Of a DNA stretch of 50,483 bases, positions 12,574-36,959 are shown piece after piece. Location: NCBI GenBank assembly GCA_946407675.1, contig CAMJPK010000003.1, positions 1-50,483 on the forward strand. The letters are read 5' to 3'. How positions within the stretch are numbered: position 1 is the stretch's first letter; each line of letters opens with the position of its first letter. Below the pieces are notes generated by a model that worked only from the letters and a program-made list of their open reading frames with translations, was not told where the DNA came from and made no database searches. This DNA is from an uncultured Clostridia bacterium (GTDB taxonomy: Bacteria > Bacillota > Clostridia > Oscillospirales > Oscillospiraceae). Position numbers and translations under genes: made by a program.

Positions 12574-12942
12574 TCACTCTTTTGAACCGACCTCTGTGAC
12601 CCGCCTTTTCCCGATGATATATGTACCGGCATATCGTTCATCGGAAACAATCCTGCCAATCGAAGAACTCCGCCATATCCCACAGCAGCGGAAAATGTCA
12701 TATTTCTTGTGTTCCTTGAGTGCCCTGTACTCACCGGGCGTACAGATCCCCCGTTCAAGCAAAACCTTTGAAATCTGTGTTGAGGTTTTTCCTTCCAGCG
12801 CAAGATCAAAAATGAGACGTATTACAGGAGCGGTCTCTGGATCAGGTTCGAGCCGCCCATCAGCCCCTTTCTGATAACCGTAAAGACATTGTTTTACCTC
12901 TTCTATTTCGACACTCCTTTTTCGACCAATTCCATGCCTCAA
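12574..12942 (-). pseudogene. Serine site-specific recombinase fragment (internal Recombinase domain only)
   Basis: CLYGYQKGADGRLEPDPETAPVIRLIFDLALEGKTSTQISKVLLERGICTPGEYRALKEHKKYD...WRSSSIGRIVSDERYAGTYIIGKRRV; no catalytic N-terminus, abrupt C-terminal stop. Confidence 0.8.
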
Positions 12943-13370: not shown

Positions 13371-13400
13371 AATCTCCGAACTTTTTAAAGTTCGGAGATT
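13371..13400. terminator. Hairpin next to stem-loop element A
   Basis: AATCTCCGAACTTT-TT-AAAGTTCGGAGATT, 14-bp stem. Confidence 0.75.
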
Positions 13401-13495
13401 GGTGGGGGAAGGTGGATTCGCTTTTCTGCGGAAAAGCCACGGGCCGGCAAACATGCCACCGGCATGTTTGCTTGGACGGCCCTTTCGAATCCACC
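13400..13495 (-). repeat. Stem-loop element A ending in a tRNA-Tyr 3'-tail copy
   Basis: Minus strand: GGTGGATTCGAAAGGG...GCAAACATGCCGGTGGCATGTTTGC...CTTTTCCGCAGAAAAGCGAATCCACCTTCCCCCACCA; outer inverted repeat GGTGGATTCG/CGAATCCACC; relative of the element at 31131-31226. Confidence 0.75.
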
Positions 13496-13506
13496 TCTAC
13501 GAATAC

Positions 13507-13542
13507 AGAAACAGGGCACCACAAATGTGGTGCCCTGTTTCT
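13507..13542. terminator. Hairpin between element A and a tRNA-Tyr tail remnant
   Basis: AGAAACAGGGCACCAC-AAAT-GTGGTGCCCTGTTTCT. Confidence 0.75.
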
Positions 13543-13564
13543 GGTGGGGGAAGGTGGATTCGAA
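13542..13564 (-). pseudogene. tRNA-Tyr 3'-terminal remnant
   Basis: tggtgggggaaggtggattcgaa = reverse complement of tRNA-Tyr T-arm/acceptor tail, then unrelated AT-rich sequence. Confidence 0.75.
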
Positions 13565-13763
13565 TTATTAAAATCGCGTATATTCTAACATTTTAGGCCT
13601 AATAAGTGCAGAAATCAAATGATAATCAGCGAATTTCGTACCTGTCAGTCCAATGCGTCCAATATGGTCAAAGCCCGGAAGGGTCAATGAAAATGGTCAA
13701 TTCGACAGCCGTCAGGAGGTAATCTGAAATGAAAACCGAACTTACATATCACAGAGGACGGCG

Positions 13764-14765
13764 ATGGAATACGACACCGACCCGGCCTTCTCCGCGCCGC
13801 AGTCCTGCGGTGAGGTCATCACCGGCGGTCTGGCGGCCGGCACCTACTACGTCCACTGCAAGGCCACGGACACCAACCCGGCGGGCGAGGCAGCCGAGAT
13901 CGTGATCGGCTACAGCGCGGATCAAACGGAGACGGGAGACGGCGCGATCCATGTGACCGCCGCGCCCGATGCGCACGGCAGCATCACGCTTTCCGAGGAC
14001 ACGCTGTCGCCCGGCGGCGACATGCTGGTCACGATCCGCCCGGAGGACGGCTATCTGCTCGACGCGATCTTCGTCAACGACGAGGAAGTGCCGCTCCACG
14101 GACGGTTCACCCGGCGCGGCCTGACGAGCGACACCCGCATCGAGGTCCGCTTTGTGCCGCGGCCGAGCGAGGCGGAGTGGAAGAACCTGTTCAAGGACGT
14201 CTCCGAGCGCGACTGGTTCTTCGACGACGTGTCCTACGCCTGCCGCAGCCGCTGGATGAACGGCGTTGCGGAGGACCGCTTCGACCTGAAGATGCCGCTG
14301 AACCGCGCCGCCTTCGTCACGGTGCTGTACCGCTTCGACCTGATGCCGGAGAGCCCGGAGAGCAGCTTTACGGACGTGCCGGACAACACGTGGCACACCG
14401 AGGCCGTCGGCTGGGCCAGCGACGCTGGGATCGTCAACGGCGTCGGCCACAGCCAGTACGCCCCGCTGGATGACATCACCCGCGAGCAGATGGCGGCCAT
14501 ACTCTACCGCTACATGAACTACCGCGGGCTCGACGTGAGCGCGAAGGACGACGCGGATCTCTCCGGCTTCATCGACGCGGACGAGATCTACGACTACGCG
14601 GCGGACGCCGTGCGCTGGGCGGTGGGCTGCGGCCTGCTGCAGGGCAGAGGCAACGGCGTGCTGGCGCCGCGCGGCACCGCCACCCGTGCGGAAGTCGCGA
14701 CGGTCTTCCACCGGCTGGAGGCCGTGGTGAAGGCCGCCGAGGCCCTCGCGGCGGATCCGGCATAA
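13764..14765 (+). pseudogene. C-terminal fragment of an SLH-domain surface protein (3 SLH repeats), apparently 5'-truncated
   Basis: FKDVSERDWFFDDVSYACRSRWMNGVAEDRF..., FTDVPDNTWHTEAVGWASDAGIVNGVG..., FIDADEIYDYAADAVRWAVGCGLLQG...; no signal peptide. Confidence 0.75.
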
Positions 14766-14775
14766 ACGAAAAAAC

Positions 14776-14855
14776 GCACCCCCTCCGGCGTGCGCGCCGG
14801 AAGGGGTGCGGGTCAAAAAAAGATTCCCCTGATTTCTCTCGAAATCAGGGGAATC
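14776..14855. terminator. Two consecutive hairpins between SLH gene and RidA gene
   Basis: GCACCCC...GGGGTGC hairpin, then GATTCCCCTGATTTC-TCTC-GAAATCAGGGGAATC (14822-14855). Confidence 0.75.
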
Positions 14856-14873
14856 TCTTGCTTTGAATCGCGT

Positions 14874-15245
14874 TTACTTCAGCTCGGCGACCGCTTCGAT
14901 CTCGCACAGGGCGTTTTTCGGAAGGGTCTTCACGGCGACGCAGCTGCGCGCGGGTTTGTTGACGAACCAGCGGGCATAGACCTCGTTGAAGGCCGCAAAG
15001 TCGTTCATATCCGAGAGGAAGCAGGTGGTCTTGATGACGGTCTCGGGGGCGGCGCCGCCTGCCAGAAGCACGGCGGCGACGTTTTTGCAGCTCTGCTCCG
15101 CCTGGGCGGCGATGCCCTCGGGCAGCGCGCCGGTGACGGGGTCGGCGGGCAGCTGCCCGCTGGTATAGACCAGGCCGCCGGCTACGTAGCCCTGCACATA
15201 CGGGCCGATGGCGCCGGGAGCGTCGTTGGTTTTGATCTCTTTCAT
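14874..15245 (-). CDS. RidA family (reactive enamine/imine deaminase)
   Basis: MKEIKTNDAPGAIGPYVQGYVAGGLVYTSGQLPADPVTG...KNVAAVLLAGGAAPETVIKTTCFLSDMNDFAAFNEVYA. Confidence 0.93.
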   Translation of the reverse strand: MKEIKTNDAPGAIGPYVQGYVAGGLVYTSGQLPADPVTGALPEGIAAQAEQSCKNVAAVLLAGGAAPETVIKTTCFLSDMNDFAAFNEVYARWFVNKPARSCVAVKTLPKNALCEIEAVAELK

Positions 15246-15272
15246 GTCAAATCTCCTTTCCCGCTATGGGGT

Positions 15273-16445
15273 TCATTCTGCGCTGCGGACGCGGGTCAAA
15301 CGCTCCATCGCCTGCGCCAGAAGCGGCCTTGCGCAGCCGATGTTGATGCGCATGAACTCGCCGAACTGCGCGCCGTAGTGGGAACCGAAGCCGAGGCCGA
15401 GGCCGCAGACGTCCACGATCCTCCGGCAGAGCTCCTGCTCGCCCAGACCCAGCGCGCTGAAATCCAGCCACATGAGGAAAGTGCCCTCGTGGCGGGAGAC
15501 CCTGACCTCCGGAAGCGTGTTTTTCAGCGCCTCCTGCACCAGCAGGGAGTTGCCTTCCAGATAGCGCAGTTCCTCGTCCAGCCAGGCGTCGCCGTGCTCA
15601 TAGGCCGCCTGCGCGGCCACCAGCCCGAAGATGTTGGGGCTCATGATCCACGCGTCGCCCAGCTTGCCGGTGACGGCGGTGCGCAGCCGCTCGTCCGGGA
15701 TGATGAGGTTGGAGGCCATCAGTCCGGACATGCTGAAGGACTTCCCGGGTGCGGTGTAGCACATGACGAGGTCGCGGACGTTTTCAAAGGAGCCGAGGGA
15801 GACGAAGCGGTTTCCGAACAGCTCCACGTCACAGTGGATCTCGTCGGAGGCCAGATAGACGCCGTAGCGGGCGCAAAGCGCCGTGAGCTGCCCCAGTTCC
15901 TCCGCCGTCCAGATCCGGGAGACGGGGTTGTGGGGGCTGCAGAAGATCATCATCTTCACGCCGCCGCGGAAGCCGTCCTCGATACGGTCAAAGTCCATGT
16001 ACCAGCTCTCGCCGCTGCGCTGCAGCGGGCACTCGACCAGCGTCCGGCCGGTGTTCTGGACGATTGCGAAGAAGGGCTCGTAGGCAGGGGTGAGGATCAT
16101 GACCTTGTCGCCCGGCTGTGTCAGCGCCTCGATGGTGAAGCGCAGCGCGGTCACCACGCCGTAGGTGGGTGCGATCCAGGAAAGCTCGGTCTCCAGACCG
16201 TGCCGACGCCGGAACCAGCCGGACACGGCGCTCAGGTAGTCCTCCATGGCGAAGGTGTAGCCGAAGACGCCGTGGTCGGTGCGCTCGTGGATGGCGGCCA
16301 TCACCTCCTCCGGCGCGCGGAAATCCGTGTCCGCGATCCAGAGGGGGATCAGCTCCTTGTCCGTGGAGAATTTCTTTTTGCAGCGATCCCACTTGATGCT
16401 GCTCGTCCCCAGCCGCCGGATGGGGGTATCGAACGTACCCGCCAT
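15273..16445 (-). CDS. MalY/PatB family PLP-dependent aminotransferase / C-S beta-lyase
   Basis: MAGTFDTPIRRLGTSSIKWDRCKKKFSTDKELIPLWIADTDFRAPEEV...ASDEIHCDVEL...TAPGKSFSMSGL; start overlaps upstream stop (ATGA). Confidence 0.9.
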   Translation of the reverse strand: MAGTFDTPIRRLGTSSIKWDRCKKKFSTDKELIPLWIADTDFRAPEEVMAAIHERTDHGVFGYTFAMEDYLSAVSGWFRRRHGLETELSWIAPTYGVVTALRFTIEALTQPGDKVMILTPAYEPFFAIVQNTGRTLVECPLQRSGESWYMDFDRIEDGFRGGVKMMIFCSPHNPVSRIWTAEELGQLTALCARYGVYLASDEIHCDVELFGNRFVSLGSFENVRDLVMCYTAPGKSFSMSGLMASNLIIPDERLRTAVTGKLGDAWIMSPNIFGLVAAQAAYEHGDAWLDEELRYLEGNSLLVQEALKNTLPEVRVSRHEGTFLMWLDFSALGLGEQELCRRIVDVCGLGLGFGSHYGAQFGEFMRINIGCARPLLAQAMERLTRVRSAE

Positions 16446-17620
16446 CAGATCGCCTGCTTCTCGGCCAGTGCCGCGATTTCCTCGGTGCTGAGACCCAGCA
16501 GACCGCCGTAGACGTCCTGATTGTCCTGACCGAGGGCGTGGCCGGGCCGGTACTCCAGCGCCGGGTGATTGCTCATCTTCAGCGGGTTGGCACCGAACTT
16601 CACCTTGCCGTAGCCCTCCACGTCGATGTCCACGAGGGTGCCGCGGGCGTTGACCTGCGGATTGGTGAACACGCGGTCGATGGTGTTCACGATGCCGGCG
16701 GGCACGCCGCCCTTGGTCATGATCTCGTCGATCTCGTCGCAGGTGTGATCCTTCATCCAATCCTGCACCAGGGCGTTGACCTCCTTGTAGTGCTTCTGGC
16801 GGTAGGCGGTGTCCAGATACTCGTCCTTCATAAGCTCGGGGTTGCCGATGATCTCACGGATGTACTTGAACAGGGCGGGGAAGCCGCCGTTGACGAAGAT
16901 GCGGCCGTCCTTGGCCTGATAGGTGCCGGAGGGGACGGCGGTGGGGGCGTTGGCGTCCTCGGTGGCGGCGATGATGTTCATGGCGGAATAGTTGGGGATG
17001 TGGGTGAAGAGCATGGGAACGGCGCAGTCCAGCATGCTGACGTCGATATACTGGCCTTCGCCGGTCTTCTGCCGCTCCCACAGCGCCATGAGGATGCCGT
17101 TGAGGGCAAAGAGGCCGGAGATGTGGTCCAACAGCGGCGCGCCGATGCGGGCGGGGCCTGACTGGACGGTGCCGGTGACGCTCATGACGCCGCTCATGGC
17201 CTGAATGATGGAGTCGAAGGCGGCGCGGTTTTTGTACGGGCCGGTCTGGCCGAAGCCGGAAATGGAGACCATGATCATCCGGGGATTGATCTTTTTGACC
17301 TCCTCATAGCCGAAGCCCATCTTCTCCATGGTGCCCGGGCGGAAGTTTTCCACCAGGACGTCGCTCTTCTCGATGAGCTTCCGGAGCAACTCCTTGCCCT
17401 CGTCGGAGCGGAACTGGATGGTGACGCTCTTCTTGTTGCGGTTGACGGCGGGGAAGTCCATGGGCCACATGTCGCGCATGTCGTCGCCCTTGCCGGCCTT
17501 CTCCACCTTGATGACCTCGGCGCCCATATCGCCCATCAGCATGGCGCAGTAGGGCGCGGAGATGATGCGTCCCAGATCCAGGACGCGGATGCCTTCCAGA
17601 ATACCTGCCATTTGGTGCAC
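16445..17620 (-). CDS. CaiB/BaiF family CoA-transferase
   Basis: EGIRVLDLGRIISAPYCAMLMGDMGAEVIKVEKAGKGDDMR. Confidence 0.93.
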   Translation of the reverse strand: MHQMAGILEGIRVLDLGRIISAPYCAMLMGDMGAEVIKVEKAGKGDDMRDMWPMDFPAVNRNKKSVTIQFRSDEGKELLRKLIEKSDVLVENFRPGTMEKMGFGYEEVKKINPRMIMVSISGFGQTGPYKNRAAFDSIIQAMSGVMSVTGTVQSGPARIGAPLLDHISGLFALNGILMALWERQKTGEGQYIDVSMLDCAVPMLFTHIPNYSAMNIIAATEDANAPTAVPSGTYQAKDGRIFVNGGFPALFKYIREIIGNPELMKDEYLDTAYRQKHYKEVNALVQDWMKDHTCDEIDEIMTKGGVPAGIVNTIDRVFTNPQVNARGTLVDIDVEGYGKVKFGANPLKMSNHPALEYRPGHALGQDNQDVYGGLLGLSTEEIAALAEKQAI

Positions 17621-17627
17621 CTCCTTC

Positions 17628-18497
17628 TTACTTCGCCGGCTCTTCCAGCTTGAACAGCCGCGCGCAGTTGCCGCCCAGCCACTTGTCCCTGACCTCGGGC
17701 TTCAAAGGCAGATCCCGGATCTCCTGGATGTTGCGGTCGAAGGGGAGGATCGGCCAGCTGGAGGCGTAGATGATCTTGTTCTGCAGCACGCTGTTGCCGT
17801 AGTGCAGCAGAGTGTCATAGCCGGAGTTGGGCACGCCCAGATACTTCGCGCGCACCGCGGAGGTGGCGATATAGAAGTTGGGGTGGCGCCATGCCACGCC
17901 AACCAGCTCGCTGACCCAGGGGAAGCCGGGGTTCATGGCGACGATCTTCAGCTCCGGGAAGTCGCAGGCCACCTGGTCCAGGTTGCTGGGATGGCCGGAG
18001 TACATGCTGATGGTGTCCGCGAAGCTCATGCTGCTGTGGAGGCAGACGGGAACGTCCAGCTCGCAGCACTTGGCGTAGAAGGGATACATCCGGCGGTCGG
18101 CCGCGGTGATGCGGAACTCAAAGGGGAAGAAGATGGCGCCCAGCAGGCCGAGATCCTTGATGGCGTGTTCCATCTCCCGCAGGGCCTCCATGCCCTTCAG
18201 GGGGTTGACGCCGCAGAGGCCGCGGTAGCGGGGATACTTCTTGCAGAAGTCCGCGACGAACTCGCTGGAGACCTTCTTGGTGCCGACGCTCTCGGTGTCC
18301 TGTGACGCGCAGAAGGCCAGATCGATCCCGGCGCGGTCCATGCCCTCGATCTGCTCCTCGACGGTGATGTTCACGATGTCGTGCATCTTCCGGTAGTTGG
18401 GGTAGATCTTCTCGTAGTTTTCCAGATCCTTCGGGGTGCACTTATACTCCCCGACGAACTCGTCCAGCGGGGGACGCAGATTGAAATCGATAACCAT
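17628..18497 (-). CDS. Amidohydrolase family protein (amidohydrolase_2 / ACMSD-like)
   Basis: MDRAGIDLAFCASQDTESVG...CGVNPLKGMEALREMEHAIKDLGLLGAIFFPFEFRI...CLHSSMSF. Confidence 0.82.
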   Translation of the reverse strand: MVIDFNLRPPLDEFVGEYKCTPKDLENYEKIYPNYRKMHDIVNITVEEQIEGMDRAGIDLAFCASQDTESVGTKKVSSEFVADFCKKYPRYRGLCGVNPLKGMEALREMEHAIKDLGLLGAIFFPFEFRITAADRRMYPFYAKCCELDVPVCLHSSMSFADTISMYSGHPSNLDQVACDFPELKIVAMNPGFPWVSELVGVAWRHPNFYIATSAVRAKYLGVPNSGYDTLLHYGNSVLQNKIIYASSWPILPFDRNIQEIRDLPLKPEVRDKWLGGNCARLFKLEEPAK

Positions 18498-18526
18498 GGA
18501 TTTCAGCCCTTTCTATAATTATTTGA

Positions 18527-19486
18527 TTATAAACCGTTGATCTCTTTGGCAAAGTGGCAGGCGATGGTGTGGCCAGGGGTGATCTCCTCCAGCTTCGGGG
18601 TCTTCTGGAAGCAGATCTCCTTCGCGTAGGGGCAGCGCTGGGCGAAGCGGCACTTCTTGCCCACATTGATGGGGGAGGTGATCTCGCCCTTCAGGAGGAT
18701 CCGCTGCCGCTGCACCAGCTTGGGCTGGGGGATGGCGGACAGCAGCGCCTTGGTGTAGGGGTGATAGTTGTGGACGAACAGCTCCTTGGCGGGGCACTTC
18801 TCCACCAGCATGCCCAGATACATGACGCAGATGTCGTCGGAGATGTGCTTGACGACGGAGAGGTCGTGGGTGATGAACATATAGGTCAGCCCCAGCTGAT
18901 CCTGCAGATCCATCAAAAGGTTGAGGATCTGCGCCTGGATGGACACGTCCAGCGCCGAGACCGGCTCGTCGCAGACGATGAACTTGGGGTTGATGGCCAG
19001 CGCCCGGGCGATGCCGATGCGCTGCCGGCGTCCGCCGTCCAGCTCGTGGGGATACTTCGTGGCCATGTTGTCCGCGAGGCCGACGGTCTCCATCAGCTCG
19101 TGGACCCTGGCCTCATAGTCGCTCTTGGCGTCGAAGACCTTGTAGATCTTCAGCGGCTCGCCGATGATCCCGGCTACGGTCATACGGGGGTTGATGGAGG
19201 AGAAGGGATCCTGAAAGACCATCTGCATCTCCCGGCGCAGCTCGTGGAGCTGTTTGGGATCGACGACGGAGATGTCCCGCCCGTCGAAGAGGATCTTTCC
19301 GGATGTGGGATCCAGCAGGTGCAGCACGGTGCGGCCCAGCGTACTCTTGCCGCAGCCGCTCTCACCGACGACGCCCAGGGTCTTGCCCTTTTCCAGCGTG
19401 AAGCTGACGCCGTCCACCGCGTGCAGGACGCCCCGCGGCGTGTTGAAGTATTTTTTCAGCTTTTTGACTTCCAGCAATGAATCCAT
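18527..19486 (-). CDS. Oligopeptide/dipeptide-type ABC transporter ATP-binding protein (DppF/OppF-like)
   Basis: Walker A GESGCGKSTLGRTVL, LDGGRRQRIGIARALAINPKFIVCDEPVSALDVS. Confidence 0.93.
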   Translation of the reverse strand: MDSLLEVKKLKKYFNTPRGVLHAVDGVSFTLEKGKTLGVVGESGCGKSTLGRTVLHLLDPTSGKILFDGRDISVVDPKQLHELRREMQMVFQDPFSSINPRMTVAGIIGEPLKIYKVFDAKSDYEARVHELMETVGLADNMATKYPHELDGGRRQRIGIARALAINPKFIVCDEPVSALDVSIQAQILNLLMDLQDQLGLTYMFITHDLSVVKHISDDICVMYLGMLVEKCPAKELFVHNYHPYTKALLSAIPQPKLVQRQRILLKGEITSPINVGKKCRFAQRCPYAKEICFQKTPKLEEITPGHTIACHFAKEINGL

Positions 19487-19497
19487 GTCGCCCCTCC

Positions 19498-20481
19498 TTA
19501 CGCCTTCTGCGCTCCGCCGTCGCCGGCGCGGGGGCAGAGGACCATGTGTGTGTCGGACAGATGAACCGGCTTCGGGCGCTCTGATGCGCAGCGCTCCGTG
19601 GCGTAGGGGCAGCGGGGGTGGAATTTGCAGCCGGTGGGCAGATCCGTCGGGGACGGCATCAGACCCTTGATGACGTGCAGCCGGTCCACGTCCTCGTCCA
19701 GATCGGGGATGGAGGCGAACAGACCCTCGGTGTAGGGGTGGCGGTGGTCGGTGAAGATGTCCTTCAGCGTGCCGCTCTCCACCACCTCGCCGGCGTAGAT
19801 GACCGCGACCTTGTCGCAGATCTCCGCCACGACGCCCAGGTCGTGGGTGATCATGATGAGCGAGGTCTTCAGATCCTCCTTGAGCTTGCGCATGAGATCC
19901 AGCACCTGCGCCTGGATCGTCACATCCAGCGCGGTGGTGGGCTCGTCCGCGATCAGCAGCTCCGGGTTGCAGGCCAGCGCGATGGCGATGACCACGCGCT
20001 GCTTCATGCCGCCGGAGAACTGGTGGGGATACTCGCTGCAGCGGGCGCCGGGGATACCGACCATTTCCAGCATCTCCATGGCGCGTGCCATGGCCTGCTT
20101 CTTGCTCATCTTGTTGTGCAGCAGCACCACCTCGGCGATCTGATCGCCCACGGTGAGAACCGGGTTCAGCGAGGTCATGGGATCCTGAAAGATCATGGTG
20201 ATCTTCTCGCCGCGGATCTTGCGCATCTCCGCCTCGCTGGCCTTGAGAAGGTCCTTGCCCTGAAAGATGATCTCTCCGTTCAGTACCCGGCCGGGAGGAT
20301 TGGGAACAAGCCCCATGATGCCGAGGGCGGTGGTGGTCTTTCCGGCGCCGGTCTCACCGACAAAGCCGATGACCTCCTGGGGCGCCAGATCAAAGGAGAG
20401 CCCGTTGACGGCGCAGGCCTCTTCGCCGTCGGTGAAATAATGGATCACGAGGTCTTTGACCTCCAGCAGTATTTCGCTCAT
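19498..20481 (-). CDS. Oligopeptide/dipeptide-type ABC transporter ATP-binding protein (DppD/OppD-like)
   Basis: GETGAGKTTTALGIMGL, FSGGMKQRVVIAIALACNPELLIADEPTTALDVT. Confidence 0.93.
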   Translation of the reverse strand: MSEILLEVKDLVIHYFTDGEEACAVNGLSFDLAPQEVIGFVGETGAGKTTTALGIMGLVPNPPGRVLNGEIIFQGKDLLKASEAEMRKIRGEKITMIFQDPMTSLNPVLTVGDQIAEVVLLHNKMSKKQAMARAMEMLEMVGIPGARCSEYPHQFSGGMKQRVVIAIALACNPELLIADEPTTALDVTIQAQVLDLMRKLKEDLKTSLIMITHDLGVVAEICDKVAVIYAGEVVESGTLKDIFTDHRHPYTEGLFASIPDLDEDVDRLHVIKGLMPSPTDLPTGCKFHPRCPYATERCASERPKPVHLSDTHMVLCPRAGDGGAQKA

Positions 20482-20493
20482 GCTGCGCCCTCC

Positions 20494-21372
20494 TCAGTTC
20501 TTCAGTCTCGGATCCAGCGCGTCGCGCAGCCCGTCGCCGAGGATGTTCAGCGCATAGACCACAAGCATGATCGCAAGACCCGGGAAAATCGTCATCGGCC
20601 AGAACTGGCGGATGAAGTTGCGCCCCGTGGACAGGAGCGAGCCCCATTCCGGCGTGGGCGGCTGGATGCCGAGGCCGAGGAAGCTCAGCGTGGCAGCGGA
20701 CATGATGGCGTTGCCGACGCCCAGCGTGGCCTGCACCAGCAGCGGCGCGAAGGCGTTGGGGAGGATGTGCAGGACGATGGTGCGGAAGCTGGACGCGCCG
20801 ATGGAACTGGCCGCCTCGATGAACTCCTGATCCTTGACCGTCAGCACCGAGGCGCGCATGATGCGGGCGTACTGGGGCATAGAGGAAAGTCCGACGGCGA
20901 TCATCAGGTTCCGGGTGCCGGAGCCCAGCGCCGAGGTGATGGCGATGGCCATCAGCAGGCTGGGGATGGCCATGAAAATGTCCATGAAGCGCATGATGAT
21001 GTTGTCAAGCTTGGGGTAGAAGGCCGCGATGGCGCCCAGCGTGCCGCCCACCACCACCGCGATGCTCACGGCGATGAGGCCGACCTGCAGGGAGATGCGG
21101 GAGCCGTAGATCACGCGGCTGAAGATGTCGCGGCCCAGGTTGTCGGTGCCGAAGGGGTGGGCGAGGCAGGGATAGACGAACTTGTTCTCCAGATCCTGCG
21201 CCGTGTAGTCATAGGGGGCGACCAGCGGCGCGAAGACGGCGCAGAGCACCATGAGGATCAGGACGACCAGCGCAATCATCGCCATCCGGTTTTTCCGGAG
21301 CCGGCGCCAGGCCTCCGCCCAGAGGCCGTTCTTTTTCTCTTTCGTGTTATTCTTCATCGGCATCTTCCTCAT
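20494..21372 (-). CDS. ABC transporter permease (DppC-like)
   Basis: HPFGTDNLGRDIFSRVIYGSRISLQVGL...EFIEAASSIGASSFRTIVLHILPNAFAP. Confidence 0.93.
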   Translation of the reverse strand: MRKMPMKNNTKEKKNGLWAEAWRRLRKNRMAMIALVVLILMVLCAVFAPLVAPYDYTAQDLENKFVYPCLAHPFGTDNLGRDIFSRVIYGSRISLQVGLIAVSIAVVVGGTLGAIAAFYPKLDNIIMRFMDIFMAIPSLLMAIAITSALGSGTRNLMIAVGLSSMPQYARIMRASVLTVKDQEFIEAASSIGASSFRTIVLHILPNAFAPLLVQATLGVGNAIMSAATLSFLGLGIQPPTPEWGSLLSTGRNFIRQFWPMTIFPGLAIMLVVYALNILGDGLRDALDPRLKN

Positions 21373-22345
21373 CCTCGTCCTCGCTCTCGTCGTCGTCGGC
21401 TTTCTTCTTCACGCCCTTGTAGGTGGACTTGATCCGGGGGTCGATGAAGCTGTAGAGAATGTCGACGAGCAGATTGATGACTGTACAAATGGCGGCGATG
21501 AAGATCACCGCGCCCATCACACAGGGGTAGTCCTTTTTATTGATGCTGTCCACCAGAAGCTTGCCGATGCCGTTGATGGCGAAGATGTTTTCGCAGAGAA
21601 CGGCGCCGGCCATCAGCGAGCCGAACTGGACGCCGATGACGGTGATGATGGGGATCAGCGCGTTGCGGAACTCATGGCGCATGATGACCTTGAATTCGAT
21701 CTGGCCCTTGGAGCGGGCGGTGCGGACATAGTCCTGGCGGATGACGTCCAGCATGCTGGAGCGGGTCATGCGCATGATGATGCCGGCCACCGCGGTGCCC
21801 AGCGTGATCGTGGGCATGATCCAGCTTTTCCAGTTGCCCTTAACCACGGTGGAGGGCAGCCAGCCCAGCCCCACCGCGAAGGCGAGGATCAGCAGCAGGC
21901 CCAGCCAGAACGGCGGCATCGAGACGCCGATGAGGGCGACGCCTGTGGCGACGGTGTCCGCCATTTTGTACTGCTTGACGGCGGAGATGATGCCGGTCAC
22001 CACGCCGATGAGCGTCGCCAGTACGATGGCCAGCAGCGACAGCTTCAGCGTGTTGGGCAGGCGGGTGAGGATCTCCGTCATGACGGGCCGCCTCGTGCGG
22101 TAGGACATGCCCAGGTCAAAATGCAGCACCAGGTTCTTCAGATAGCGCCCCAGCTGCACGAGAAAGGGCTGGTCAAGACCCAGCTCCGCGTCCAGAGCAG
22201 CGATGGTCTCAGGGGTGGCGCTGTCACCTAAAAGGATCGCGGAAGTGTTGCCCGGCGCGATGTAGATCAGGGAAAAGACGATGACGATGGCTCCGAGCAG
22301 GATCGGGATCATCCAGAGGATTCGTTTGCAAAGATATTTAAGCAC
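21347..22345 (-). CDS. ABC transporter permease (DppB-like), acidic C-terminal tail
   Basis: MLKYLCKRILWMIPILLGAIVIVFSLIYIAPGN...DYVRTARSKGQIEFKVIMRHEFRNALIP; ends KKKADDDESEDEDEEDADEE. Confidence 0.92.
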   Translation of the reverse strand: MLKYLCKRILWMIPILLGAIVIVFSLIYIAPGNTSAILLGDSATPETIAALDAELGLDQPFLVQLGRYLKNLVLHFDLGMSYRTRRPVMTEILTRLPNTLKLSLLAIVLATLIGVVTGIISAVKQYKMADTVATGVALIGVSMPPFWLGLLLILAFAVGLGWLPSTVVKGNWKSWIMPTITLGTAVAGIIMRMTRSSMLDVIRQDYVRTARSKGQIEFKVIMRHEFRNALIPIITVIGVQFGSLMAGAVLCENIFAINGIGKLLVDSINKKDYPCVMGAVIFIAAICTVINLLVDILYSFIDPRIKSTYKGVKKKADDDESEDEDEEDADEE

Positions 22346-22479
22346 TTGGCTCCTCCTCTCAGCGAGGCCCGGCAGGCCTCAGGGAATGCTAAGCTCTTCG
22401 CGGCTTAGTTCGTCAATGGCTCGGCCGCAAGGGCCGAGCCACTGGCAATCGGATTAATTGTTTCCGGGGCTTCGGGCGC

Positions 22480-24099
22480 TTATTCGAAGTAGCAGTACTT
22501 GAAGCGGGCGCACTCGAAGGAGCCGTTGTGATAGTTCTGGAGCTCGCGGCTCACGCCGGTGAGCTGCTGCTTGTCATAGGTGGGCAGCCAGGGCACTTCC
22601 TCGGCCAGAATGTCGAAGCACTGCTTGTACAGCGCCCAGCGCTCGGTCTGGTCGATGGTGGCGACGGCCTTGTCCAGAATGGCGTCGTACTCGGTGTTGC
22701 GATAGCCCGCAGTGTTCATGCCGCCGGACATGCGGGAGTCGAAGTTGCGGAGGATCTTCTCGGCCTCAACGGTGGTGCAGGTGGCGCCGAGGATGAAGAT
22801 GCCCTGCAGGGTGTTGCTGTCGATCAGGGTGGAGTAGGCGCCCATCTCGAGGGTGACGATGTTGGTCTTGATGCCGACCTTCTTCAGATACTCCTGAATG
22901 GCCTCGCAGAAGGCGATGCGCTCGGGGTCGCTGTTGGTGGTGAGGTCGCACTCAAAGCCGTCGGGATAGCCGGCCTGCTTCAGCAGCTCGACCGCCTTGT
23001 CGGGATCGTAGGTGATGAGATCCATCTTGGAATAGCCGTCGACCTCCGGGTCGACCATGCTGGTGGCGAGGGTGTGCATGCCGCCGTAGGCCGCCTCATA
23101 GCAGGCGGGAACGTCGATGGCATAGGCCACGGCCTGGCGCACGGTGGGATTGTCAAACGGCGCGTACAGGCAGGTGAAGCCGATGTAGTTGGTGTTGTGC
23201 GCCGGGCTCTTCTCGATGCGGGTGGTGGCGCCGTTGGCAATGCGGTCGACGTCGATGACGGAAAGCTCGAAGGCAACGTCAAGCTCGCCGGTCTCCAGCA
23301 TGATGGCGCGGTTGGTGGGCTCGGGAATGACGATCATGTTCAGATACTTGATCGCCGGCTCGCCGCCCCAGTAATCGGGGAACGCTTCAAACTCGACGCG
23401 ATCGCCGGAGACGAAGTTCTTTACCTTGTAGGGGCCGGTGCCGTTGGGATTGGCCATGTAGTCGCCGCCGGTCTCCTCAAAGGTCTTCTTGCAGGAGATG
23501 GCGGTGAGGGGCCACTCCAGCCAGGCGATCTGCGGGGTGTAGGTGTCGGTAAGGGCCATGCGGTAGGTGTACTTGTCGACGACCTCGCTGTTCTCCAGAT
23601 CCACATGGGTCAGCGCGATGCTGGCGGCGCCCATGTCATGGGCACGGGCGATGGAGAAGGCCACGTCCTCGGCGGTGAGCTCGTCGCCGCTGTGGAACTT
23701 GACGCCCTGGCGGATGTGGAAGAGGATGTGGGTGTCGTCCTCCCAGTCCCAGCTCTCCGCGAGACCGCCGGTGATGTTGCCGTCGATGTCGCGGGCAACC
23801 AGGGTCTCATAGACCTGGGTCTTGACGCGCTGGATGTGCTGGCTGTTGTTGTCGTTGGGGTCCAGGTTCATGGGGTCTGCGATGATGCCGACGTTCAGCG
23901 TGTCGCGGCTGGACGCGTGGGTGCCGACCTCGTTGGAGCCCGCGGAGCTCGGCTGGGTCCCGGTCTGGGTGCCCGTCTGGGTTCCGGTCTGGGTGCCCGT
24001 CTGGGTTCCGGTCTGGGCTCCGGTGTTGCCGCCGCTGCCGCAGGCGGCCAGAGCCAGAACCATGACCAGAGCAAGGAGCAGTGCAATCAGCTTTTTCAT
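22480..24099 (-). CDS. ABC transporter substrate-binding lipoprotein, family 5
   Basis: MKKLIALLLALVMVLALAACGSGG lipobox; HIRQGVKFHSGDELTAEDVAFSIARA. Confidence 0.93.
   Translation of the reverse strand: MKKLIALLLALVMVLALAACGSGGNTGAQTGTQTGTQTGTQTGTQTGTQPSSAGSNEVGTHASSRDTLNVGIIADPMNLDPNDNNSQHIQRVKTQVYETLVARDIDGNITGGLAESWDWEDDTHILFHIRQGVKFHSGDELTAEDVAFSIARAHDMGAASIALTHVDLENSEVVDKYTYRMALTDTYTPQIAWLEWPLTAISCKKTFEETGGDYMANPNGTGPYKVKNFVSGDRVEFEAFPDYWGGEPAIKYLNMIVIPEPTNRAIMLETGELDVAFELSVIDVDRIANGATTRIEKSPAHNTNYIGFTCLYAPFDNPTVRQAVAYAIDVPACYEAAYGGMHTLATSMVDPEVDGYSKMDLITYDPDKAVELLKQAGYPDGFECDLTTNSDPERIAFCEAIQEYLKKVGIKTNIVTLEMGAYSTLIDSNTLQGIFILGATCTTVEAEKILRNFDSRMSGGMNTAGYRNTEYDAILDKAVATIDQTERWALYKQCFDILAEEVPWLPTYDKQQLTGVSRELQNYHNGSFECARFKYCYFE
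23956..24021. repeat. Intragenic 12/24-bp tandem repeat encoding (TGTQ)n
   Basis: ggtctgggtgcccgtctgggttcc repeats; protein TGAQTGTQTGTQTGTQTGTQTGTQ. Confidence 0.9.
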
Positions 24100-24531
24100 G
24101 TTTGTCATTTCCTCCTTAAAAAATTTGTTGTCGTGTGAAATGAACGATATGTCGTATGAAACGGTAAATCCTGTGTCGCTTGCCACCTCCTGCTGAAATA
24201 ATGCTCGTTAAGCTCCCGAAAGGGAACGGATTTTGCAAATATACTAGGATTTGCAAAGCAACGCTTTCAAGATTCGTACTTTTTTCACAATATTAATAGC
24301 ATGGAACGCGGCGCGGAATCAATCGGTTTATCGGATTGCGTAATTCAGTTCATCAATCAGTTCATAAATCTGTTAATTCAATTCATATAATAATCATAGC
24401 CGCCGGCCGCATGGAAGCGCGCCCCGGCGCGTCCGTTGTTCGGCATGGGCATATCTTATGTGAAAATGCGCTGCATGTCCAATATCCCATAGGAATACCC
24501 AATAATAGAAATACGCTATAGCAACAATAAA

Positions 24532-24573
24532 ACCGCAGGAACCGAAGTCCCGGAGAACTTCGGTTCCTGCGGT
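24532..24573. terminator. Strong hairpin between the SBP promoter region and the LysR gene
   Basis: ACCGCAGGAACCGAAGT...ACTTCGGTTCCTGCGGT. Confidence 0.7.
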
Positions 24574-24644
24574 CGTTTTCTGTTGCCTATGGAAAACGCA
24601 CATGGGATATGCCCGCGGGAAACGGGGCGGGGTGGGACGGCTTC

Positions 24645-25529
24645 TTACGGTTCGGCATTGAGTACCTTGTAGAAATCCATTGCGGTGCGGGTCTTCTTCC
24701 TGTTCGGCCAGAGGATCACGGTCTTGACCGAGGTGTTTTCATTGTTCAGCGGCACCATGGCCATGACGCTGTCGGAGCCCTGCAGGTTGCAGATCTCCGT
24801 CATGCTGGAGCGGGTGACCAGCACGACGCAGTTGTTGTGGCTGATGTGATACATGAGCTGGCAGCGGTAGCACTCCTGCACCACCTTGGGTTCGAAGCCG
24901 CCCACCTTGCGGAGCAGCTCATCGCCCAGCACGCGCATGGATGAGCCGGCGGGCAGCACCACGAACTGCTCGTCCCGCAGCTCCTGTAAGGAGACGCTCT
25001 CCCGCTTCGCGAGGGGGTGGTTGCGGCTCATGGCCGCCATGACCGGCTCCTCGGTCAGCAGGGTGTACTCGGTCTTGACGTCCTCCAGCCGCAGGAAGCT
25101 GGCCAGCAGGATGTCGCAGTCGGAGGCCTTCAGCGCGCTGGGGATGTCCCGGTGGGAGATCTCGATGCGGCGGAGAAAGACGTCCGGATACTGCCGCTGA
25201 AACTCCAGAAAGCGGCTTTCGTTGCCGGTCTTGGTGCAGGAATAGACCGTGAGGATGCGGTTTTCCGCGTGGGCATAGGCGGAGATCTCCGCCGTGGCGT
25301 TGTCCACCTCCAGCAGAATGCGCTCCACATAGCCCTTGAAGATCTCGCCGCACTCGTTGAGGTATAAGCGGCGGCCGACGCGGTCGAATAAGGGCGCGCC
25401 CAGCTCATTTTCCAGCCGGCTCAGGTTGGCGCTCAGCGCCGGCTGGGAGATGTTCAGCACCTCCGCGGCCTTTGTCAGATGGTTGAGTTCCGCAATGGTT
25501 TGAAAATTCCGAAGCTGCGCGATGTCCAT
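24645..25529 (-). CDS. LysR family transcriptional regulator
   Basis: MDIAQLRNFQTIAELNHLTKAAEVLNISQPALSANLSRLENELGAPLFDRVGRRLYLNECG. Confidence 0.95.
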   Translation of the reverse strand: MDIAQLRNFQTIAELNHLTKAAEVLNISQPALSANLSRLENELGAPLFDRVGRRLYLNECGEIFKGYVERILLEVDNATAEISAYAHAENRILTVYSCTKTGNESRFLEFQRQYPDVFLRRIEISHRDIPSALKASDCDILLASFLRLEDVKTEYTLLTEEPVMAAMSRNHPLAKRESVSLQELRDEQFVVLPAGSSMRVLGDELLRKVGGFEPKVVQECYRCQLMYHISHNNCVVLVTRSSMTEICNLQGSDSVMAMVPLNNENTSVKTVILWPNRKKTRTAMDFYKVLNAEP

Positions 25530-25745
25530 AGCCTGCTCCTTTCGCCTGAGTTCGCCAGGTGTCCTGTGTTTTCACCCCCATTATACCGTCTGCTCCGACA
25601 AAAAACAAGCGAGAAAATCTCCCGCCCCCGCAACTCATAAACGCCGTCAATCAACTGAAAACGAAGTTCGATTGATACCCGGCGCGGCGCTATGCTATTT
25701 TTTAAAGAGTAAACGGAGAACTACGCTTTTTTGCAGGAGGGAGCC

Positions 25746-27008
25746 ATGGGAAACACTGCGATCGTCGGCTTCGGCGGCGCCGGATATCACGCCGCGCGGG
25801 CGCTCCGGGAGGCGGATCCGGACGCGGAGATCCACGTCTACACGGACAGCCCGGACGCGCCTTATAACCCGATGCTGACGACTTATTACGTGGCGGGGCG
25901 GATCGACCGGGAGACCATGATGCCCTATGGCCCGGCGGAGGAGATCGCCGCGAAGCTGGGGCTTTGTCTCCACCGGGAGCGGGTGCTGCGCCTGCGGGCG
26001 CGGGAGCGGACGCTGGTGACGGCGTCCGGGGAGGAGCGGCGCTATGACGACATCGTCCTCGCCACCGGCTCCCATCCCCTCGTCCCGCCCATCGAAGGCC
26101 TGAGCGCCGACTGCGGCGCGGTCTACGTGATGCGCACCCCGGCGGACGCGGACCGGCTTCTGGCGCGGATCCGGGAAGGGATCTCCTCGGCGCTGGTGAT
26201 CGGCGCTTCCTGGGTGGGGATCAAGGTGGTGGAGGCGCTCTGCGCCCACGGCGTCCCCACGACGCTGGCGGACATGGCGCCCCGGATCTTTCCCACCGCG
26301 ACGCTCCCGCCCGTTGCGGAGGAGATCCACCGGCGGCTGGAAGCGCAGGGGATCGCCCTGCGCTTCGGCAGCGGGATCGCTTCCATCGTCCCGTCCGGCG
26401 GCGGCCTCGTCAGCACCTTCTCCGACGGCGCGTCGCTGCGGACGGACGTAGTGGCGCTCTGCCTCGGCCTGCGCCCCACGGTGGACATTGTTGACCCGGC
26501 GGAATTCGGGATGGGGAAGGGGCTGCGGGTGGATCTGCGGATGCGCACCGGCGTTCCTCACATCTATGCCGTGGGCGACTGCTGCGAGGCCTATGAGATG
26601 ATCACACGCCAGAGCATGAACGTGAACCTCTGGGCCAACGCCTTTGAGCAGGGCGAGGTGGCAGGCCGGAACATCGCCGGCGTTCCGGCGCAGTTTGGCG
26701 GAAACTTCATCCACAACATCACCCATTTCCTCGGCATGGATTTCGTGGGGCTGGGCGACAACCGCAGCGAGGGGCGCACGGTCTCCTACCGCCACCCGAC
26801 GGAGGGCTGGCAGCTTTACGCCGTCTTGACGGGCAGCGGCATCGGCTGCATCAATCTGCTGGACAACCACGCGGCGTCCGGCCCGGCGAAGGCGGCGCTC
26901 ATCAAGCGCCTGACCGCCCCGGGCACGGAGATCGGCCCGGCGGCCCGGCTTGCCCTGCGGGAGAGCGGGCTGCCTGCGGACATCATTGCGGAGATCGGAG
27001 GATACTGA
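25746..27008 (+). CDS. FAD-dependent NAD(P)/disulfide oxidoreductase
   Basis: TAIVGFGGAGYHAARALREADPDAEIHVYTDSP...YDDIVLATGSHPLVPPIEGL...HIYAVGDCCEAYEMITRQ. Confidence 0.9.
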   Translation: MGNTAIVGFGGAGYHAARALREADPDAEIHVYTDSPDAPYNPMLTTYYVAGRIDRETMMPYGPAEEIAAKLGLCLHRERVLRLRARERTLVTASGEERRYDDIVLATGSHPLVPPIEGLSADCGAVYVMRTPADADRLLARIREGISSALVIGASWVGIKVVEALCAHGVPTTLADMAPRIFPTATLPPVAEEIHRRLEAQGIALRFGSGIASIVPSGGGLVSTFSDGASLRTDVVALCLGLRPTVDIVDPAEFGMGKGLRVDLRMRTGVPHIYAVGDCCEAYEMITRQSMNVNLWANAFEQGEVAGRNIAGVPAQFGGNFIHNITHFLGMDFVGLGDNRSEGRTVSYRHPTEGWQLYAVLTGSGIGCINLLDNHAASGPAKAALIKRLTAPGTEIGPAARLALRESGLPADIIAEIGGY

Positions 27009-27011
27009 GCT

Positions 27012-29144
27012 ATGGAAGAGAAGGAACTGGAGCGCCGCCTGGCGCACAAGATCCCCGGCGCAGACACCGGCATCGAGGTGAAGCACAGCTTCTGCAGCAT
27101 CTGCTCGCCCAGCTGCCACTGCGGCATCGACGCCTATGTGAAGGACGGAAAGCTCCTGAAGGTGGAGGGCACCCAGGGCCACCCCATGAACGACGGTCTG
27201 CTCTGCACCAAGGGCGCCGCCAACCGGGCATATATCTACCGGCCTGACCGGCTGCGCACGCCGCTGAAACGGGCGGGCGCCCGGGGCGAGGGCCGCTTCG
27301 AGCCCATCAGCTGGGAAGAGGCCTACGACCTCATCGCGGAAAACCTCCTGCGGCTCCGGGCGGAGAGCGGCGCGGACAGCGTGGCCTTCTTCGGCGGCTA
27401 TCAGAAATGGTTCCGCTGGCAGCTGGCCCGCTTTGCCTATGATTTCGGCTCGGTGAACTACGGCACCGAGTCCAGCGCCTGTATGACCGCCAACAAGATG
27501 GCGTGGACGACTCTCACGGGCATGAACGCCAAAATGGATATGAAAAACGCAAAGCTCTACGTGGCCTGGGGCGGCGGCAATCACCACTCCCACCACCTGG
27601 CGGCGAAGAAGGCGGAGAACTTCCACCGCAACGGCGGAAAGGTGATCGTAGTGGATCCGCGCAACACGCCGCTGGCCGCGCGCACCGCCGACCTGCACAT
27701 CGCCGTCCGCCCGGGCACCGACGGCCTGCTGGCGAACGCCGTTGCCGGGATCATCCTTCGCAACGGCTGGCAGGATCAGGCCTACATAGACAAATACGTC
27801 CACGGCTTCGACGATTACGCGGCCTACGTGACCTCGCTGGATCTGCAGGAGGTCAGCCGCATCACCACCGTGCCCGTGGAGAAGATCGAGGAGATGGCGC
27901 GGCTGATGGGGACGGTGAAGCCCATGAGCATCGAGGCCAGCCCCATCTCCCTCATCCACCAGACCAACGGCTACCAGACCGTCCGGGCCATGTTCTCCCT
28001 GAGCGTGATCACCGGCAACTATGACACCGTGGGGGGCAACCAGCCCAACATCGAGACCTTCGCCCATCTGGGCGCGGGCTACGCCACCCGTGAGGAGGAG
28101 TTCATCGAGGCCAATACGCCGGCGGGCTTTGAGAACCGCGTCGGCGCGAAGCGCTTCCCCCTCTGGGCGGACATGGTGCATGAGATGCAGTCGCTGGATC
28201 TCGCCCGCCAGATCCACGAGGGAACGCCCTATCCCATCCGCGGTCTGTTCGCGCTGGGTTTCAATTACCGGATCTTCCCGGACTCGGAATACTTCCGCGC
28301 TGCGCTGGAGAAGCTGGACTTCTTCGTCACGGCGGATCTTTTCATGACGGACACGGTGAAATACGCGGACGTGGTGCTGCCCACCTGCTCTTCGCTGGAG
28401 CGGGAGGAGCTGAAGGTCTACCCCGGCGGCTTCGCCAAGTACTATCTCCCGGCCATCGCGCCGCTCTATGAATCCCGCAGCGACGCGCGGATTTTGCAGG
28501 AGCTGGCAGAGCGGCTGGATCTGGACGACGCGCTGCTGCGCAGCGGTTACCGCAAATGCCTGGAATACGTCTTCGAGCCCACCGGCTACGATCTGGACGC
28601 GCTGATCGCGTCGCCGCTGCCGCTGAAGGCGCCCTGCATGCGTCCCTACAAGCCCCACGCCTATATTGACGGCGGCTGCAAGACCCCCACGGGGAAGCTG
28701 GAGCTTTTCTCCGAGCGGGTGAAGACCGTGGGCGCGGCGGCGGGGCTGGATCCGCTGCCCCGCTGGTACGCGCCGAGCTATCAGCCGACGGAGGAATACC
28801 CCTTCCAGCTCCTCGCCGGCGTCCGGATCCCCAACGCCATCCACAGCCACCTGCACAAGGTGCCGTGGACGCGCTCGCTGCGGCCGGAGCCCATGGCGGA
28901 CATGAACCCGGCCGACGCCCGGGCGCTGGGGATCGCGGCGGGGGACACGATCCGGCTGGTGAGCGCCTTCGGCGCCATCACAGTGAAGGCCAATCCCACC
29001 GCGCTGATGAACCAGGGACAGATCTGCATGTACCACGGCTATTCCGAGGCGGACGTGAACACGCTGCTGGATCGGAACAACGTGGATCCCTATTCCGGCT
29101 TCGCCGGATACAAAAACGGCATCTGTGCCGTGGAAAAGCTCTGA
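27012..29144 (+). CDS. Molybdopterin-dependent oxidoreductase, DMSO reductase family
   Basis: CSICSPSCHCGIDAYVKDGKLLKVEGTQGHPMNDGLLCTKGAAN...ESSACMTANKMAW...KVIVVDPRNTPLAARTADLHIAVRPGTDGLLANAV. Confidence 0.92.
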   Translation: MEEKELERRLAHKIPGADTGIEVKHSFCSICSPSCHCGIDAYVKDGKLLKVEGTQGHPMNDGLLCTKGAANRAYIYRPDRLRTPLKRAGARGEGRFEPISWEEAYDLIAENLLRLRAESGADSVAFFGGYQKWFRWQLARFAYDFGSVNYGTESSACMTANKMAWTTLTGMNAKMDMKNAKLYVAWGGGNHHSHHLAAKKAENFHRNGGKVIVVDPRNTPLAARTADLHIAVRPGTDGLLANAVAGIILRNGWQDQAYIDKYVHGFDDYAAYVTSLDLQEVSRITTVPVEKIEEMARLMGTVKPMSIEASPISLIHQTNGYQTVRAMFSLSVITGNYDTVGGNQPNIETFAHLGAGYATREEEFIEANTPAGFENRVGAKRFPLWADMVHEMQSLDLARQIHEGTPYPIRGLFALGFNYRIFPDSEYFRAALEKLDFFVTADLFMTDTVKYADVVLPTCSSLEREELKVYPGGFAKYYLPAIAPLYESRSDARILQELAERLDLDDALLRSGYRKCLEYVFEPTGYDLDALIASPLPLKAPCMRPYKPHAYIDGGCKTPTGKLELFSERVKTVGAAAGLDPLPRWYAPSYQPTEEYPFQLLAGVRIPNAIHSHLHKVPWTRSLRPEPMADMNPADARALGIAAGDTIRLVSAFGAITVKANPTALMNQGQICMYHGYSEADVNTLLDRNNVDPYSGFAGYKNGICAVEKL

Positions 29145-29158
29145 GGAGGCCGGAACAA

Positions 29159-29668
29159 ATGCGAATGGTCTTTGATCTTGATGTGGAAAAATGCGTCGCC
29201 TGCGGCGCCTGCGCCGTGTCCTGCATGGATCAGAACGACATCTGGCCGGACAGGGGGGACGCGCCCTACCGCCGGGTGGGCGTGGTGGAGCCGCTGCCCA
29301 AGGCCGGCGACGGACGGCTGACCTATCTCTCGCTGGGCTGCATGCACTGCGCGGACGCGCCCTGCATCAAGGCCTGCCCGGTGGGCTGCCTGTTCAAGGA
29401 TGAGCAGAACCTGACGCTCTACGACAACACCCGCTGCATCGGCTGCCACAGCTGCGCCATGGCCTGTCCCTTCGGCGCACCCACCTACGGCCCGGACGGG
29501 AAGATGCGCAAGTGCGACGGCTGCGCGGAGCGGCTGAAAAACGGACTGATCCCCGCCTGCGTGCGCAACTGCCCCACCGGGGCGCTCTCCTGCGTGCCGG
29601 AGGAGACCTACGGCACCGCGGCCTTCGACCGCTCGCTGCGGGCTATCGTCGAGCACGCGGAGCGCTGA
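29159..29668 (+). CDS. 4Fe-4S dicluster electron-transfer subunit of the molybdoenzyme
   Basis: CVACGACAVSCMDQNDI...CMHCADAPCIKACPVGCLFKD...CIGCHSCAMACPFGAPTYGPDGKMRKCDGC. Confidence 0.92.
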   Translation: MRMVFDLDVEKCVACGACAVSCMDQNDIWPDRGDAPYRRVGVVEPLPKAGDGRLTYLSLGCMHCADAPCIKACPVGCLFKDEQNLTLYDNTRCIGCHSCAMACPFGAPTYGPDGKMRKCDGCAERLKNGLIPACVRNCPTGALSCVPEETYGTAAFDRSLRAIVEHAER

Positions 29669-29670
29669 AC

Positions 29671-30999: not shown

Positions 31000-31025
31000 T
31001 TATAATAGGTGCCCACTGCACAGAA

Positions 31026-31125
31026 AACGCCCCGCGCCGGGATACGGCGCGGGGCGTTCCAGCTTGTCAAGGAACGAGTTCTTTGACAAGCTGAAGCGCC
31101 TGATTTCTCTTGAAACCAGGCGCTT
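31026..31125. terminator. Three successive hairpins after the CoA-transferase gene
   Basis: AACGCCCCGCGCC/GGCGCGGGGCGTT (31026-31058); AGCTTGTCAA/TTTGACAAGCT (31061-31092); AAGCGCCTGATTTC-TCTT-GAAACCAGGCGCTT (31094-31125). Confidence 0.75.
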
Positions 31126-31130
31126 TTGAT

Positions 31131-31226
31131 GGGGGAAGGTGGATTCGCCCGCCTGCTGGCGGGCCCGGTCGGCGGGAAAACGTGCCACCGGCACGTTTTC
31201 TGACACGCCTCCCCTTCGAATCCACC
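31131..31226 (-). repeat. Stem-loop element B ending in a tRNA-Tyr 3'-tail copy
   Basis: Minus strand: GGTGGATTCGAAGGGG...AAAACGTGCCGGTGGCACGTTTT...GGCCCGCCAGCAGGCGGGCGAATCCACCTTCCCCCATCA. Confidence 0.75.
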
Positions 31227-31272
31227 TCTTACGATGAAAAATGACAGGCCCACGGGTGTGGGTCTGTCATTT

Positions 31273-31357
31273 TGGTGGGGGAAGGTGGATTCGAACCACC
31301 GAAGTCACTGACAACAGATTTACAGTCTGCCCCCTTTGGCCACTCGGGAATTCCCCC
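31273..31357 (-). tRNA. tRNA-Tyr (GTA), copy 2
   Basis: Same 85-nt gene as 873-957. Confidence 0.95.
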
Positions 31358-31615: not shown

Positions 31616-31655
31616 TGGAGCTGGTAGACGGACTCGAACCCCCGACCTGCTGATT
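31616..31655 (-). pseudogene. tRNA-Thr 3'-half fragment (attachment-site duplicate, site 2)
   Basis: tggagctggtagacggactcgaacccccgacctgctgatt identical to the tRNA-Thr 3' part, then diverges. Confidence 0.85.
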
Positions 31656-33322: not shown

Positions 33323-33333
33323 CGTTGCCCACC

Positions 33334-33867: not shown

Positions 33868-33877
33868 AAAAGAATCC

Positions 33878-34942: not shown

Positions 34943-34944
34943 CT

Positions 34945-36913: not shown

Positions 36914-36959
36914 ATGGTTTCCTCCTTATTTCTCGGCTTGTGCCGGTATTTCCTTTGCA

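Follow-up and report, generated by a model that had tools for sequence, protein, structure and literature searches.

Bacterial islands often land at tRNA genes, and the users of these genes that are known to us bring a recombinase and target a single tRNA. The tyrT repeats of E. coli, with the rtT RNA (RF00391), are repeat units behind a tRNA-Tyr gene that each contain a piece of the tRNA 3' end. To our knowledge, they occur at a single locus and have no left arm that tracks different tRNAs. The ssrA islands of Dehalococcoides are inserted in the middle of the T-loop and have a 20-bp direct repeat (PMC3146451), and phage Ms6 integrates in the T-loops of tRNA-Ala (PMC1762012).

Element A and its sister copy B

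The locus that we compare with these systems lies in a 50,483-nt stretch of DNA from an uncultured Clostridia bacterium of the Oscillospiraceae (contig CAMJPK010000003.1), here called the window. All named pieces of the element A locus were found on the minus strand at 13371-13564 (Table 1), in the order read by the earlier note: a remnant of a tRNA-Tyr tail, a hairpin, an element and a second hairpin. The element, which had been put at about 96 nt, is present and measures 98 nt. The proximal tail has the same sequence as the 3' ends of the three intact tRNA-Tyr genes of the window. The first hairpin (T1) is perfect over 18 bp (13506-13543; arms 13506-13523 and 13526-13543) and the second (T2) over 14 bp (13371-13400; arms 13371-13384 and 13387-13400). 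The left arm of A is the reverse complement of the T-loop and the 3' strand of the T-stem of tRNA-Tyr.

The closing arms and both internal hairpins described earlier are there. The predicted single-strand fold (-53 kcal/mol, z = -6.9) is a three-way junction of the closing stem, the GCC-GGT-GGC hairpin and the hairpin with the CGCA loop; the internal loop of body hairpin 1 is asymmetric. In body hairpin 2, the stem showed compensated variation across copies while the (C/A)GCA loop was constant. A was also said to end like tRNA-Tyr, and its distal copy indeed equals tRNA nt 56-76. With up to three mismatches, the 23-nt tail occurs six times in the window against a chance expectation of 0 (three intact tRNA-Tyr genes, two in A and one in B). 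The core hairpin, also with a chance expectation of 0, is present in A and B.

The covariance model described below matched B with 90.5 bits (31136-31228), and B folds as A does (z = -5.7). The statement that A has no tRNA body was right for A. Its sister B, by contrast, immediately follows an intact tRNA-Tyr, as is usual in the family.

Table 1. Positions in the window of the parts of elements A and B and of genes of the neighbouring integrative mobilisable element
Feature	Position	Strand	Basis or remark
Proximal tRNA-Tyr tail, TTCGAATCCACCTTCCCCCACCA	13542..13564	-	nt 54-76, rest of tRNA absent
T1 of A, terminator-like hairpin separating tail and element	13498..13541	-	perfect inverted repeat
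Element A, 98 nt	13400-13497	-	
Left arm L of A, GAGGTGGATTCGAA	13484..13497	-	inverted repeat and family profile
Body hairpin 1 of A, GGGCCG ... GCAAACATGCC-GGT-GGCATGTTTGC CGGCCC	13441..13483	-	folds, covariation over 15 copies
Body hairpin 2 of A, CTTTTC-CGCA-GAAAAG	13421..13436	-	folds
Distal tail copy of A, CGAATCCACCTTCCCCCACCA, tRNA nt 56-76	13400..13420	-	direct repeat, sharp family boundary at nt 56
T2 of A, second terminator-like hairpin	13371..13399	-	inverted repeat
Intact tRNA-Tyr(GTA) bearing B	31273..31357	-	ARAGORN and Rfam
T1 of B	31229..31272	-	sequence
Element B: left arm, two-hairpin body, distal tail copy	31127..31228	-	covariance model match
Distal tail copy of B, CGAATCCACCTTCCCCCATCA	31127-31147	-	
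T2 of B, hairpin GCGCCTGGTTTC/GAAATCAGGCGC	31096..31126	-	sequence
Tyrosine integrase of the 31616-50137 element	48390-49538		
HTH/AlpA-like protein of the 31616-50137 element	45828-46085		
MobL relaxase of the 31616-50137 element	43863-45794		

A family of hairpins behind tRNA genes

A pattern search with the core hairpin in relatives gave clusters of copies and almost none in the reversed control. An alignment of 15 units (A2) was the basis of a covariance model (R1). Compensatory changes were observed in 14 of 28 pairs of this alignment, and the covariation score was 0.404, compared with 0.152 for shuffles and at most 0.127 for slid controls. Among 301 Oscillospiraceae genomes, R1 matched 64, in 35 of 106 genera, with up to 13 reported copies per genome. 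The earlier note had named a search of this kind as a check, and had counted a lack of further copies or of conserved structure among what would refute its proposal. At the level of genomes the proposal withstood this test, with the structure conserved among the copies, and R1 is able to find further ones. In the class-wide search the matches were rarer (13 of 388 genomes), and the tRNA layout recurs in other families. The hosts that have names are mainly rumen and gut Oscillospiraceae MAGs and also Butyricicoccus MAGs; the single isolate record among them is Pseudoflavonifractor sp. An85.

We directly observed one architecture throughout the family: tRNA, terminator hairpin, left arm, two-hairpin body, copy of the tRNA tail and second terminator. 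We examined 148 copies, and in 84 of them a predicted tRNA ends no more than 120 nt ahead of the element, with 23 anticodons and one tmRNA represented. Many of the others are second units of arrays, lie at contig ends or have a tail without an ARAGORN call, and some of them are genuine non-tRNA copies. Tandem units were directly observed as well. As for the proposed link to tRNA-Tyr, the Tyr tail in A and B stands, but the link was too narrow, since the tail is that of whichever tRNA the copy adjoins. The identity as a tRNA-Tyr element was rejected on the 23 anticodons and the tmRNA. The same family structure speaks against simple decay, and A is, as had been claimed, not a tRNA pseudogene of that origin.

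Rfam gave no match to the element at gathering or relaxed thresholds, and the best sub-threshold hits were unrelated. Viral contigs and phage and plasmid collections also gave no match. In open-licence papers we found no description of a tRNA-tail hairpin family, and the hairpins behind tRNA genes of gut Clostridia are apparently undescribed.

Several loci differ from the usual layout. Another body type with the same layout was found in one genome (L192 in G180). One copy (L138, contig 12 of G287) has a T1-left arm-body-tail unit almost identical to the tRNA-Gln copy of a sister species and no tRNA upstream. In G090 (L280), tRNA-Arg(tct) is followed by a body-like hairpin in reverse and then by a 14-nt tail copy. 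Relatives of the body hairpin also occur off tRNAs, inside interspersed palindromic repeats (L288, L155, L157, L134, L147, L148-L150 and L156). In L288 (G000 contig 116) and L155, the outer arms are mutually complementary and consist of other sequences, CCGAGGGGG/CCCCCTCGG and CTTGAGG/CCTCAAG. Right beyond a tRNA-Lys copy (L219, G202 contig 32) lies a RAYT-like Y1 transposase that is bordered by a repeat of its own, GAGAACCGTCCCCGTTGACTCC.

Both arms match the adjoining tRNA

The distal copy corresponds to nt 56-76 of the adjoining tRNA, and the left arm reads as nt 54-65 in reverse complement. Both arms were directly observed to match the host tRNA. The mean longest match of the right arm was 18.2 nt with the tail of its own tRNA and 6.0 nt with other tRNAs, and its own tRNA was the best in 76 of 84 cases. 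For the left arm the match was 11.8 nt compared with 7.0 nt, with the own tRNA best in 42 of 84, and it weakens within the acceptor stem. By tRNA position, the start of the distal copy rises from 1% at nt 54 through 28% at nt 55 to 82% at nt 56. The variable positions 57-73 match at 0.80-0.96, compared with 0.26-0.74 by chance, and the copy runs to CCA.

Where an isoacceptor differs between genomes, the distal copy has the base of its own genome at 0.90 and that of the other at 0.02; for the left arm the values are 0.76 and 0.13. In the G108 genome, with 43 tRNA hits, we read 30 loci and ten element loci. The arm is absent from the element-free tRNAs there, which have only short chance matches at the left-arm position. 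The hairpin family also accounts for stray tRNA tails in Clostridia genomes.

The copies at tRNA-Phe are found at the same place across genera, and a change in the T-loop (TTCGATT/TTCAACT) is present in all three copies. This persistence looks like old residence and less like active movement.

DNA palindromes or a processed RNA

The earlier note had left a choice between a structured RNA processed like a tRNA 3' end and a hairpin mobile element that exploits the tRNA tail. If selection acted on an RNA strand, G-U pairs should be more frequent than A-C pairs. In 2953 pairs of the body stems we counted 27 G-U (0.9%) and 25 A-C (0.85%), and in 1200 pairs of the adjacent tRNA stems 88 G-U (7.3%) and 8 A-C (0.7%), all in alignments that had been fitted to the model. 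This balance points to palindromes that are kept in DNA. The outer stem P1, which closes the element, is less clear than the body, with 3.2% G-U and 0.8% A-C. The covariation of the body stems was directly observed to be free of wobble.

A structured non-coding RNA with a 3' end matured like that of a tRNA (RNase P/Z, CCA), in idea like the rtT RNA of E. coli, would fit the strongly conserved fold with its compensatory changes, the exact tRNA 3' end through CCA and the slight G-U excess of P1. The tRNA-Phe copies, which have no T1, also agree with it. Some of these were seen between tRNA-Phe and tRNA-Gly; they could be transcribed, and the missing T1 together with this position makes it probable. 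However, a terminator-like hairpin is at the T1 position in nearly all copies except those at tRNA-Phe, the presence of the element is patchy and there is no Rfam family. The separation of tRNA and element by T1 and the lack of a G-U excess in the body favour a hairpin element at the DNA level, and we consider a processed RNA improbable. The mobile element is supported by dispersed copies behind many tRNAs, a direct repeat that starts in the T-loop and tandem arrays.

Proposed insertion at the tRNA 3' end

On balance, we lean towards reading A and B as copies of a non-autonomous DNA element with the 3' ends of tRNA genes as its insertion sites. The element would be about 70-140 bp long without a gene, and its core would be the left arm and two hairpins, usually with T1. 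On insertion, the part of the host tRNA that runs from the T-loop (nt 55/56) through CCA would be duplicated as a direct repeat. The tRNA itself would remain intact, with T1 as its terminator and with the element and a second tail behind it. With the left arm as an inverted copy of T-loop and T-stem, the pieces follow one another as tail, T1, inverted tail, body and tail.

The Ser(tga) and Ser(cga) copies of G081 (L100/L104) have almost identical T1-left arm-body units, directly observed behind two tRNAs of one genome, and each ends in the tail of the tRNA that it adjoins. The Ser(gga) and Ala(cgc) copies of G315 have a common T1-left arm-body unit, and the Ala copy has a foreign tail. Such a T1, common to copies at different tRNAs, bears on the question of whether T1 is only the native terminator, as does the likeness of T2 to T1 described next. 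A unit that recurs behind several tRNAs within a genome also backs the mobile element. Among 54 usable pairs, 17 have a T2 that matches T1 better than the 99th percentile of mismatched pairs, and in these the direct repeat runs through the terminator. The true insertion unit is ambiguous because this holds for about a third of usable pairs. In one single-contig genome (L083) the direct repeat is about 75 bp, and some of the cases with similar T2 and T1 are remains of tandem arrays. What speaks against insertion is that we found no clean pair of filled and empty sites from closely related strains.

Accidents of replication could produce the same architecture: at the terminator hairpin, DNA synthesis would turn back on itself and make a reverse copy of the tail, then run through the body hairpin and return to the T-loop. 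No dedicated recombinase would be involved and the body would be a passive interspersed hairpin repeat. The direct-inverted-direct order and the direct repeats that run through the terminator agree with this, as do the T1 palindromes that often run into CCA/TGG, the almost full reverse tail of one copy (L030), the absence of wobble, the T-loop TTCGAA that is palindromic in itself and the body relatives off tRNAs with other complementary arms. Template switching is reported to create hairpin arms and to make inverted-repeat arms equal (PMC8794818, PMC8604942). However, the sharp boundary at nt 56 across many genera looks more like a defined unit, and near-identical T1-left arm-body units at different tRNAs are also against an accident. 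We regard this origin as rather unlikely.

For the inserting element, movement may occur by recombination or by hairpin-templated copying at the T-loop, with the mover being an enzyme that acts in trans, and the left arm may be kept matched through template switching between the arms. A recombinase with a fixed attP or core cannot by itself fit the arms to some 20 tRNAs, so the missing step would be a new copying of the arms from the target. Fold-back DNA synthesis could be the route, together with template switching from one inverted arm to the other, and this would also explain the lack of wobble. Tentatively, the element may even rewrite its own ends at each insertion, with both arms newly copied from the target tRNA, one direct and one inverted. 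Such a T-loop-specific process would need no gene of its own and would tolerate any tRNA.

We searched the genomes that carry the element for a mobilising enzyme (RAYT, reverse transcriptase and integron integrase), and there was no consistent candidate. Therefore, we infer the mechanism. The Y1 transposase is absent from many element-rich genomes. The reverse transcriptase (RVT_1) was found in 5 of 25 element genomes, and may since have been lost from others; the integron integrase (TIGR02249) gave no hit over the cut-off in 24 genomes. Both were rejected as movers since their presence is inconsistent. RAYT was rejected on the one adjacent case, near L065, which carries its own, different repeat.

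The surroundings of A and B

A tRNA-Thr 3' part or a whole tRNA-Thr precedes each of the three intact tRNA-Tyr genes. Direct copies of the 23-bp Tyr tail edge the stretch 13565-31295 (17.7 kb); B is at one of its ends, and A lies just outside the opposite one. Its G+C content is 0.631, compared with 0.583-0.588 in the surroundings. No recognised integrase was noticed in it. The bounding Tyr tails, with B and A at the ends, suggest that A was once behind tRNA-Tyr and was later separated. Probably, A is away from its tRNA because the 17.7-kb stretch came between tRNA-Tyr with B and A. The genes of the stretch include a CoA-transferase, oligopeptide-transporter-like genes and a molybdopterin oxidoreductase.

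Such a stretch beside A and B also raises the thought that the hairpins are useful to the host, either as a spare attachment site to which tRNA-targeting islands are diverted or as a safeguard of the tRNA 3' end. Arms that remain matched over long times would agree with this. However, the subset of tRNAs is random and patchy among species, and islands that use the tail work without a hairpin body. We find a host device highly improbable.

An integrative mobilisable element (31616-50137; genes in Table 1) separates the tRNA-Tyr gene at 49968 from that at 31273. It is flanked by a full tRNA-Thr(tgt) with tRNA-Tyr on one side and by a tRNA-Thr 3' remnant (31616-31654) with an intact tRNA-Tyr on the other. 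A third copy of the tRNA-Thr 3' remnant is at 967-1005, adjoining the intact tRNA-Tyr at 873-957, and its terminator is the same as that of the 49968 copy. About 0.45 kb beyond A, on the same strand, we found a remnant of a large serine recombinase (12574-12942, PF07508).

Comparison with known systems

Several described hairpins share single features with the family. Like the REP/REPIN repeats (RAYT, TnpA-REP), it consists of many small intergenic hairpins without their own gene, but it has no consistent RAYT and its arms match the adjoining tRNA. The GTAG tag of these repeats was found before P1 in 1 of 84 units and before body hairpin 1 in 5 of 84, and the RAYT near L065 has a repeat that differs from the hairpin of the element. 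The attC sites of integrons are also imperfect hairpins with unpaired bases on one side; the attC box RYYYAAC (/GTTRRRY) was searched for, and 0 of 84 units had RYYYAAC. The archaeal 19-nt fixed motif is a palindrome at a set distance behind many tRNAs, but has no copy of the tRNA tail. A classical MITE was rejected because the terminal arms vary with the host tRNA and the repeat is 21-22 nt or longer. With RVT_1 in 5 of 25 genomes, a retroelement repeat moved by reverse transcriptase does not fit. The rtT RNA (RF00391) gave no Rfam covariance match to the copies of the element.

A close parallel are the T-loop integrative elements (Ms6 and the ssrA islands). In these, too, the 3' end of the tRNA or tmRNA is directly repeated with a start in the T-loop (nt 56-76 in the hairpin family), and tandem insertions lie behind one gene whose 3' end stays intact. 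The parallel of the direct repeat supports recombination at the T-loop. However, these elements encode an integrase, bring cargo and are confined to a single fixed target, whereas a unit of about 100-145 bp has no room for a recombinase gene. The hairpin family is geneless at about 100 bp, is found with 23 anticodons and has an extra inverted arm of the tail. Geneless hairpins that track more than 20 kinds of tRNA would mean an unknown mechanism of mobility or an unusually clear natural case of template switching, the latter with three copies (direct, inverted and direct) kept in step.
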